This document shows, piece by piece, positions 22,946-27,989 of a stretch of 57,820 bases of DNA. Each line of letters opens with the position of its first letter. The stretch's first letter is position 1. This DNA comes from Prevotella sp. (GTDB lineage Bacteria > Bacteroidota > Bacteroidia > Bacteroidales > Bacteroidaceae). The stretch is taken from positions 1 through 57,820 of the forward strand of contig JAFVGS010000021.1 in NCBI GenBank assembly GCA_017474845.1, in the 5' to 3' direction. The position numbers and the translations under genes were made by a program. The notes beneath the pieces are model-generated. The model ran no database searches and had not been told where the DNA came from. It saw nothing but the letters and a program-made list of their open reading frames with translations.

Positions 22946-23872
22946 TTACACAAGCCGTTTATGCCTGAATATGAGCCACGCGACGACAGAAACAGCCACT
23001 GAAAGCACCATTGCGAAGACAAATCCCCATGTGGTTGTCTCCATGCCGTTCACCAGGTTCATGCCGAACAAAGAGGCGATGAGTGTGGGGCACATCATCA
23101 TGATCGACACCGACGTCAGCGTACGCATCACCGTATTCATATTATTATTAATAATAGAGGAATAGGTGTCCATCGTCGACTCCAGAATGTCGGAGTAGAT
23201 GGAAGTAGTTTCACGGGCCTGCGACATCTCGATGTTCACGTCCTCGATCAGGTCGGCATCCAGTTCGTCAATCTGCAGTTTGAACTTCAGTTTCGACAAC
23301 AAGTTCTCATTGCCTCGGATGGATGTCTGGAAGTAGGTGAGCGAGTCCTGCAGGCGGCTGAGGCCTATCAGGCTCTCGTTGTTCACTTCCTTGTCGAGGT
23401 TGCGCTTGGCCTTGTCGATGAGCATCGAGATCTGCTTCAAGCGCTTCAGGTACCAGACGGCGCTGGAGAGGAACAGGCGGAAGATCATATCGACATAGTC
23501 TGTAAATCCTACGTTGCGCTTCTGCTGGAACGAAACGAAGTCGATCATCATGTTCGTCTCGTAGTAGCAGACGGTGATGGTAACATCGCGTTTGTGGATG
23601 ATACCTAAGGGCACGGTGGTATACGGTGTCCTCGACCGTATCTCTTTCACGTAGGGGATACGGAGGATGATCAGCATCCAGCCGTCGTCGTACTCGTAAC
23701 GGGCACGCTCGTCGGTATCGCTGATGTCCGACATGAAATAGTCAGGGATATTGAACTGCTCTTCTAGTTCGTGCTGGTCTTCTTCGGTGGGGCATGTCAC
23801 CTGTATCCAGCAATTGGGCTGCCACTCTGAGAGTTGGCTCAGTCCGCCTTGGGTGTTCCAAAAAGTCTTCAT
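22946..23872 (-). CDS. corA: CorA-family magnesium/divalent cation transporter
   Basis: 308 residues. A large cytoplasmic N-domain precedes long helices (KRLKQISMLIDKAKRNLDKE) and two C-terminal membrane segments. The pore signature GMN is in LFGMNLVNGMETTTWGF (about 270), and the tail is basic (FRHKRLV). The ATG at 23872 (MKTFWNTQGG) is chosen. The in-frame open stretch back to a TTG at 23947 has no ATG and lies within a structured leader. Expressed from a promoter at 24048-24079 with a leader of about 170 nt carrying a short upstream ORF. Confidence 0.93.
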   Translation of the reverse strand: MKTFWNTQGGLSQLSEWQPNCWIQVTCPTEEDQHELEEQFNIPDYFMSDISDTDERARYEYDDGWMLIILRIPYVKEIRSRTPYTTVPLGIIHKRDVTITVCYYETNMMIDFVSFQQKRNVGFTDYVDMIFRLFLSSAVWYLKRLKQISMLIDKAKRNLDKEVNNESLIGLSRLQDSLTYFQTSIRGNENLLSKLKFKLQIDELDADLIEDVNIEMSQARETTSIYSDILESTMDTYSSIINNNMNTVMRTLTSVSIMMMCPTLIASLFGMNLVNGMETTTWGFVFAMVLSVAVSVVAWLIFRHKRLV

Positions 23873-24047
23873 TTTGCTAATCCTTTTCTTTTTCCTTGGC
23901 GCGACGGTGCGGGGGGCACGTTGGCGCGAGAAATGACTTAGTGGCAAGAGGATTAGCGGTCTTGCCTGCTATCCTCCGGCCTATAACTTGTTACTATTCG
24001 CCGGGTAATCGTCCATAATTTTATTAATACTTTGATGATTTCGGCTG
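23873..24047 (-). promoter_or_regulatory. Structured corA leader RNA with competing pairings
   Basis: The segment at 23948-23957 (RNA GCUAAUCCUC) can pair three ways. (i) With GAGGAUAGC at 23968-23976: 9 pairs, one bulge. (ii) It can sit in the loop of a 7-bp hairpin, GGCAAGA/UCUUGCC (23943-23949 with 23960-23966). (iii) With AGGAUUAGC at 23876-23884: 9 perfect pairs, just before the corA ATG at 23872. A further GC-rich hairpin at 23899-23927 would bring the partners of (iii) together. An 11-codon ORF ends 4 bases before pairing arm (i). The architecture is that of a translation-controlled attenuator. No known riboswitch is recognised. Confidence 0.65.
23981..24016 (-). CDS. Upstream ORF / putative leader peptide of corA
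   Basis: ATG at 24016 to TAG at 23981-23983, encoding MDDYPANSNKL. It begins about 27 bases after the predicted transcription start. Two Asp, then Tyr-Pro, directly follow the start, similar in composition to the acidic/proline start of enterobacterial MgtL, which destabilises ribosomes at low Mg2+. A ribosome at its stop codon would cover GAGGAUAGC (23968-23976) and stop pairing (i) of the leader. A role in sensing Mg2+ is inference. Confidence 0.55.
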   Translation of the reverse strand: MDDYPANSNKL

Positions 24048-24079
24048 CAAAGTTACGAATAACTGAGCAATAAACCAAA
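24048..24079 (-). promoter_or_regulatory. Promoter of corA
   Basis: Minus-strand TTTG (24076-24079), a 20-base spacer, then TAACTTTG (24048-24055), matching both Bacteroidota promoter elements. Confidence 0.7.
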
Positions 24080-24170
24080 TTTTATTGGGATTATTTCGCG
24101 CAAAAGATGCAGGGAAAGGCTGTTGGAGGTCTCTGGAAACAGGTCATGAATGCCGAGTAAACCGTTTGTC

Positions 24171-27113: not shown

Positions 27114-27989
27114 TTACGTGACGATGGGTACGGTGAAAGTTCTTCCGTCTGCTAAAACGAAAGTGATGGATTTATTGTCTTCGGAAATGCTGATGTCTAC
27201 AAAAATGTCATCAGGTCCATCCTCGCCGTCTTTACCATCCAGTCCGTCTTTACCATCCTTGCCGTTTTTACCGTCTTTGCCGTTTTTACCGTCCTTGCCG
27301 TCTTTACCGTCTTTACCGTCCTTACCGTCTTTACCGTCCTTACCGTCTTTACCGTCGGCAGAAATGCCAGTACTATTCCAAGTGTTACCGTCGTCAGTGG
27401 AAATCTCCCATATACGAGTTTCTTCGTTAATGCGAACCTGAGGAACAATAGCTGGTGCTAATGGATTGTTTTCTCCATCTTTTCCATCTTTTCCATCTTT
27501 TCCATCTTGACCGTCTTTACCGTCTTTACCGTCCTTACCATCTTGGCCGTCCTTACCCGTGACAGGCATTTTATTGCCATTTCCATCAAGAATCCATTCG
27601 CCGTTGAGAGTCCAGTACCAGATACCATCTGAATCTTGTCCGACACTGATGAGAAAATCTATGTTTTTCCCGTCTTGCCCATCTCGTCCATCGGTACCTT
27701 CTTTACCATTCCGAAGGGTCGTTGTCTTACCATTGTTGAAAGTAATGGTGTATGTCCCGTCTCCATTTTGGTTGACGTTTGTGATGTAACCTCGTTCCTC
27801 TATGGAAGTGATAATCAACTGTAAGGCGGACAGGTCGGTGTTGATGTCAAACAACTCTTCTTCCAAAATTTCCACACGTTTTCCCAATCCCTGCAACTCG
27901 TCGGTATAATTGTATTTATCGCATGAGATAACCGTCGATAGGATTGCCAGTGCGAAAATGACTGTAATAACTTTTTTCGTTGTCTTCAT
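27114..27989 (-). CDS. Collagen-like (GKD) lipoprotein with DUF4988-type coiled coil, paralogue 2
   Basis: 291 residues. Lipobox STVISC (Cys23), then a coiled coil (about 28-68, LGKRVEILEEELFDINTDLS) as in DUF4988. A beta module with GYITNVNQNGDGTYTITFNN leads to the first Gly-X-Y run (95-108). Next are a WYWTLNGEWILDGNG module, a second run (145-173), a VRINEETRIWEISTDDGNTW module and a third run (213-258). The protein ends in a short beta module (ADGRTFTVPIVT). The X-Y pair is almost always Lys-Asp; there is no proline in the runs. Probably a trimeric surface stalk (inference). Follows its paralogue by 12 bases. Confidence 0.88.
   Translation of the reverse strand: MKTTKKVITVIFALAILSTVISCDKYNYTDELQGLGKRVEILEEELFDINTDLSALQLIITSIEERGYITNVNQNGDGTYTITFNNGKTTTLRNGKEGTDGRDGQDGKNIDFLISVGQDSDGIWYWTLNGEWILDGNGNKMPVTGKDGQDGKDGKDGKDGQDGKDGKDGKDGENNPLAPAIVPQVRINEETRIWEISTDDGNTWNSTGISADGKDGKDGKDGKDGKDGKDGKDGKNGKDGKNGKDGKDGLDGKDGEDGPDDIFVDISISEDNKSITFVLADGRTFTVPIVT

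Follow-up and report, generated by a model that had tools for sequence, protein, structure and literature searches.

In enterobacteria, the leader peptides MgtQ and MgtL carry early acidic residues, and poor translation of these upstream open reading frames (uORFs) at low Mg2+ raises the transporter (PMC8092293, PMC11282234). In E. coli, the effect of the acidic residues in both peptides is relieved by EttA, according to the same reports (PMC8092293, PMC11282234). The closest known system is mgtQ-mgtB of Salmonella, which, like the locus presented here, combines a short uORF, early acidic residues and a Mg2+ transporter (PMC8092293). Concerning Bacteroidota, no such device was found described in the open-licence PMC literature searched, in line with the preliminary description of this DNA, which knew of none. 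The transcriptome of B. thetaiotaomicron includes sORFs in long 5' UTRs, corA being unmentioned in the text searched (PMC7366714). Here we present the leader of a corA gene from the window (the whole analysed stretch of 57,820 nt), which probably forms a leader-peptide-coupled translational switch for corA, with low cytoplasmic Mg2+ as the likely ON signal.

The corA gene and its leader

The corA gene is located on the minus strand, like all leader elements below, at 23872-22946 (stop included; ATG at 23872-23870) and encodes a 308 aa protein. The product falls in the Pfam CorA family (E-value = 5e-48) and scores 96.7 bits against NCBIfam TIGR00383, under the cut-off of 200.75. The genome also bears a gene scoring over the cut-off for TIGR03719, a family which we take to be EttA-like. 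On the minus strand at 27114-27989 the window additionally harbors a 291-aa ORF that resembles a lipoprotein at its start and contains long collagen-like GKDGKDG repeats, as judged by eye.

As in leaders of the MgtL/CorL/MgtQ kind, the Mg2+ transporter gene is preceded by a short uORF, here at 24016-23981. It reads MDDYPANSNKL (11 codons, stop TAG) and is kept in relatives, and the motif ATGGAYGAY occurs three times in the window, both strands counted. Ahead of it, at 24055-24048, lies the box TAACTTTG of the type TAnnTTTG, which we take to be a Bacteroidota-type promoter box and which recurs in relatives: 119 of 126 distinct leaders have TAnnTTTG in the 80 nt ahead of the uORF, vs 3 of 125 for a control stretch 120-200 nt upstream. 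The surrounding stretch (24043-24080) matches three other sites in its own genome (L002, L003, L004) with 87-93% identity across 28-38 nt, and this repeat looks like a strong shared promoter sequence.

Four nt past the uORF stop begins arm 1, GAGGATAGC (23976-23968). Arm 2, GCTAATCCTC (23957-23948), sits in the loop of a clade-specific hairpin, GGCAAGA/TCTTGCC (23966-23943), and is separated by a linker from arm 3, AGGATTAGC (23884-23876), which ends 3 nt ahead of the corA ATG. In the window leader, AGGATTAGC offers nine complementary bases to GCTAATCCT. These elements were read from the sequence; swap tests bear on the three arms, and pair counts on arm 1, arm 3 and the hairpin (see below). 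Promoter box, uORF, arms and corA ATG all sit, base for base, where the preliminary description had placed them.

Conservation of the uORF and its link to corA

The close set was made up of 80 corA loci, the best from 571 relatives found, under names such as Prevotella, Xylanibacter and uncultured Prevotellaceae. At least 230 nt of DNA precede corA in 76 of them, the other four being cut shorter. An 11-codon MDDYPA uORF precedes corA in 75 of these 76 loci; the 76th (L092) reads MIDDYPA and was not counted as MDD. Within the family of the window, 45 of 50 fetched loci carry an MDD uORF no more than 420 nt before corA, starting with MDDY in 41 cases, MDDSYPA in one, MDDSNPR in two and a doubtful MDDPYS in L191 (167 nt away), and five (L186-L189, L193) carry none within that distance. 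Genus g3 has the uORF in 16 of 17 fetched corA loci, 14 times as MDDSNPR, these 17 being a sample from at least 34 strong CorA matches among those listed. Among 25 more distant loci (order and class), nine have an MDD uORF, one of them doubtful (L198: MDDGPET, 208 nt from corA), and 16 do not. The uORFs at this level are MDDYHPEID, MDDYHPDS, MDDYPPER, MDDYHADIFRCN, MDDSIPRETKTVSNK, MDDYYYSLVLN, MDDYYPKNLIITE, MDDYPADGNQRVKP and MDDGPETLSDLLNC, and L199 and L202 present look-alikes (MDEVP and MDGVPD, by eye). No MDD uORF was seen at five distant CorA paralogues (L220-L224), whose guessed gene starts make them an imperfect control. Judged from these sequences, the device is present beyond Prevotellaceae-like genomes, and the uORF of the preliminary description is upheld as a conserved element.

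The invariance of Asp2-Asp3 in the large sets was preset, because the search motif demanded ATGGAYGAY. In the 76 close loci, a single one of which, inspected by eye, is without the motif, variation in codons 2, 3 and 4 is synonymous and confined to the third base (codon 2, GAC 74/GAT 1; codon 3, GAT 65/GAC 10; codon 4, TAC 74/TAT 1). Tyr4, which lies outside the motif requirement, is found in 121 of 126 distinct leaders, with TAT and TAC about equally used (44/42) in 86 distinct uORF DNAs. Early acidic and proline residues are represented by Asp2-Asp3 and by position 5, which is P in 52 of the 86 distinct uORFs, H in 25, Y in 8 and L in 1. E, D or N stands at position 7 in 81 of the 86, later positions vary freely, and 92 of 121 leaders have an 11-codon uORF. 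Irrespective of the amino acid encoded, codon 6 (23999-24001 in the window) reads NCG in 82 of the 86. When it encodes Ala it is GCG in 74 of 74 cases, yet GCG makes up only 13.8% of the Ala codons in 32 ORFs of the window. Peptide chemistry gives no explanation for this third-base constraint.

The uORF is tied to corA. The pattern ATGGAYGAYTAYCCNGCN (MDDYPA) was found in 31 of 201 family genomes, and in all 30 matches fetched of these 31 corA comes next, its match starting 112-249 nt after the uORF start. The wider pattern ATGGAYGAYTAYYHNNCG was found in 103 of the 201 genomes; of its matches, 14 were chosen by eye as odd and fetched. Two proved to be corA leaders, eight lie within frames of 116-232 codons and four open short frames, beside which no transporter gene was recognised by eye. 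An occurrence of the same uORF ahead of other transporter genes was considered and rejected, as none of the 12 non-corA matches resembled such a uORF by eye.

A second, compact architecture was met in family f62, where eight of ten genomes have a strong CorA match. All seven fetched loci (L211, L213, L214, L217, L241-L243) read ATG(G/A)ACGATGAT, an out-of-frame MDDD or MNDD uORF whose ATG begins 7 nt before the corA ATG, and L216 (family f76) has an out-of-frame uORF starting with MEDD at the same distance. Codon 4 (GAT) is forced because the overlapping corA start reads ATGAT, a constraint that does not reach the upstream ATG, codon 2 or the G of codon 3. Since some of these loci are near-identical, they represent few independent events, and six further loci of the class (L209, L210, L212, L215, L218, L219) do not have the compact uORF. 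We tentatively raise the view, which we hold to be somewhat doubtful, that Met-Asp-Asp peptides are an old, class-wide Mg2+ gauge for corA in Bacteroidota. It would exist in a switch form (uORF plus arms 1, 2 and 3) and in a minimal form, in which ribosomes could be lost at the acidic codons and initiation could thereby pass to corA, no RNA switch being needed. The sensor would then be the instability of the ribosome itself, a solution arrived at separately from mgtL, corL and mgtQ of enterobacteria.

Alternative pairings and the position of the ribosome

The sequences of the arms change completely between genera, and their complementarity is kept. For the cross-genus comparison we used 35 leaders with under 65% in common over the 24 nt that precede the corA ATG; identical leaders were counted once, and L198 and leaders with a uORF-corA gap outside the set limits were left out. 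Duplexes of each arm 2 region with its own arm 3 averaged -14.9 kcal/mol vs -9.5 after permutation. This swap test gave a z of -11.5 with 0 of 20000 permutations as good (-11.7 with 37 leaders), a value which is not a strict probability because the leaders are related. The own arm 3 partner ranked first in 8 of 35 leaders and among the top three in 21. With narrower segments, z was -10.3 for arm 1 with arm 2 and -7.8 for arm 2 with arm 3, again with 0 of 20000 permutations reaching the own partners. A pairing between arm 1 and arm 3 was rejected (z = -0.8), and the control pairs gave no signal either: 5' UTR with arm 2, +1.5; 5' UTR with arm 3, +0.7; arm 2 with corA codons 2-15, -0.8. A fourth, trp-like protector pairing gained no support across genera, as swapping uORF codons 4-8 against the segment after the stop gave z = +1.9, a test of little power because those codons hardly vary; in part of the window's genus, CCGGC/GCCGG and CACGC/GCGUG complements between uORF and post-stop segment were seen by eye.

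Within the window's genus, a chosen part of 55 leaders was aligned. For arm 2:arm 3, 93.1% of cells are paired, and five of the nine pairs have changed on both sides, a number reached by 0 of 500 shuffles. Arm 1:arm 2 is paired in 87.6% and the hairpin in 82.7% of cells; both-side changes in these two were not above shuffles (88 and 206 of 500, respectively), and the further pair types of the hairpin were below shuffles (499/500). Two slid versions of the pairings rival the covariation scores (arm 2:arm 3 slid by +1, 0.066 vs 0.061; arm 1:arm 2 slid by +3, 0.178 vs 0.196 unslid), with paired cells at 60% or less. In L112, GCTATTCC with GGAATAGC replaces the usual GCTAATCC with GGATTAGC, a compensatory change. 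The linkers between arm 2 and arm 3 vary in length and sequence between fixed ends in the close loci (best 80 of 571). Further away, in L173, L174 and L194 (g29) and L182 and L183 (g14), arm 3 reads GATTCAGAC, or GCAAAG plus RTTCAG; it shares no sequence with arm 3 of the window, yet at least nine bases pair with its own arm 2. The same five leaders present a T-rich stretch a few nt after arm 2.

The preliminary description had proposed three mutually exclusive pairings. Two of them, arm 1:arm 2 and arm 2:arm 3, co-vary across genera, and the comparisons support them as conserved, mutually exclusive alternatives that include the corA start region through arm 3. The third does not hold generally: the hairpin with GCUAAUCC in its loop belongs to part of the window's genus and is lost in the MDDYH-type leaders L146-L156 of the alignment.

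Each leader was also folded, at equilibrium, downstream of an assumed ribosome footprint reaching 15 nt beyond the first P-site base, and openness was measured over the last 16 nt plus the corA ATG. Moving the ribosome from the stop back to codon 4 raised the predicted openness of the corA start by a mean of +0.061, vs -0.012 in shuffles (sd of the mean 0.011). The difference was +0.11 in the window leader (0 of 60 shuffles), 13 of 35 leaders were matched by at most two of 60 shuffles, and three of 35 (L168, L178, L191) went clearly in the opposite direction. Mean pairing of arm 3 with upstream RNA increased from 0.42 five codons before the uORF end to 0.54 at the end, and in the window it jumped from 0.07 to 0.44 at the second-last codon. 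Folding codon by codon, 18 of 37 leaders were more open early, 7 less and 12 flat (Wilcoxon p = 0.005), and in L244 the start is predicted to be masked at every ribosome position. The modelling supports an open corA start with an early ribosome and a closed one with the ribosome at the stop as an average trend rather than a rule for every leader. The earlier claim that a ribosome at the uORF stop masks the corA start is supported on average.

In the switch that we favour, a ribosome would translate the short uORF (Met-Asp-Asp-Tyr-Pro/His-Ala...). On reaching the stop it would cover arm 1, so that arm 2 pairs with arm 3 and the corA start is closed (OFF). A ribosome pausing or falling off early would leave arm 1 free to trap arm 2, and the corA start would be open (ON).

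Signal, output and known systems

By analogy, the switch would most probably be turned ON by low cytoplasmic Mg2+, because early acidic and proline residues destabilise enterobacterial ribosomes when Mg2+ is low and the gene encodes a CorA-type Mg2+ transporter. The Mg2+ signal, ribosome drop-off on the MDDYP peptide and the in vivo direction are drawn from mgtL, corL and mgtQ and from the function of the gene; these, and translation rather than Rho as the output, we infer. Another signal acting through the same uORF and RNA switch is possible, although rather unlikely: the peptide or the rare NCG codon 6 might pause the ribosome in response to translation speed, an ABC-F factor, tRNA supply or another metal. 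The NCG preference at codon 6, with GCG as the sole Ala6 codon, and the score of the protein under the CorA equivalog cut-off (TIGR00383) would suit such a signal, whereas Asp2-Asp3 and the D, E or N at position 7 fit acidic destabilisation and the protein belongs to the Pfam CorA family, which speaks for Mg2+.

As for the output, a trp-like attenuator with an intrinsic terminator was rejected, as a terminator scan of 23800-24150 in the window found none. Among 37 divergent leaders, a T-run follows the arm 1:arm 2 hairpin in only three and arm 3 in one. Because terminators are so few, translation control of corA appears to fit better than transcription attenuation. Of 37 leaders, 18 have GGAG no more than 25 nt from the corA ATG, and AGGAGG-like sequences stand before corA in genera g3 and g2 (e.g., L229, L184); the ribosomes of Bacteroidota reportedly do without Shine-Dalgarno pairing (PMC9976891). 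That the uORF acts on corA transcription through Rho, as has been reported for mgtL and corL (PMC11552253), is improbable here, since arm 3, which co-varies with arm 2, immediately precedes the corA ATG.

The search with Rfam covariance models, which presumably include the Mg2+ sensor and the M-box riboswitch, returned no match to the window leader at gathering score and only two chance-like ones (E = 1.4 and 1.9), so that the leader matches no riboswitch family of Rfam. A ligand- or ion-binding riboswitch with an incidental uORF, suggested by a structured and conserved leader, is highly improbable given this result and a peptide that is kept while the arm sequences change completely between genera.

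Translational attenuators of the erm type (e.g., PMC5118997) work by drug-induced stalling on a leader peptide. The peptide-coupled switch of corA would resemble them in that access to the start of the following gene depends on where the ribosome stands on a leader peptide, and differs in its acidic peptide start and in having no known drug. With mgtL-mgtA and corL-corA of E. coli and Salmonella, where poor uORF translation at low Mg2+ raises the transporter, it shares acidic and proline residues and mutually exclusive structures, and corL likewise precedes corA (PMC11552253, PMC11282234). Their output as described is Rho-dependent termination (PMC11552253), whereas arm 3 would mask the corA start. 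Alternative stems, one of them masking the RBS of the transporter, and translational control link it to mgtQ-mgtB (PMC8092293). In contrast, mgtQ lies between mgtC and mgtB and its stem 1 overlaps the uORF, while the uORF described here belongs to the 5' leader and its stop precedes arm 1; the transporter proteins differ, with no sequence similarity by eye (PMC8092293).

By analogy, the leader would work like mgtQ and mgtL, the likeness being one of function. As a conserved leader element it can be tested in genetically tractable strains. If the proposed switch is true, the failure of ribosomes on a very short acidic peptide would set Mg2+ uptake in gut and rumen Bacteroidota, and ribosome stability would have evolved convergently into a magnesium gauge in bacteria reported not to rely on Shine-Dalgarno pairing. 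The principle would be that of enterobacteria, but with a sequence unrelated to theirs, in a different transporter context and with translation as the output.
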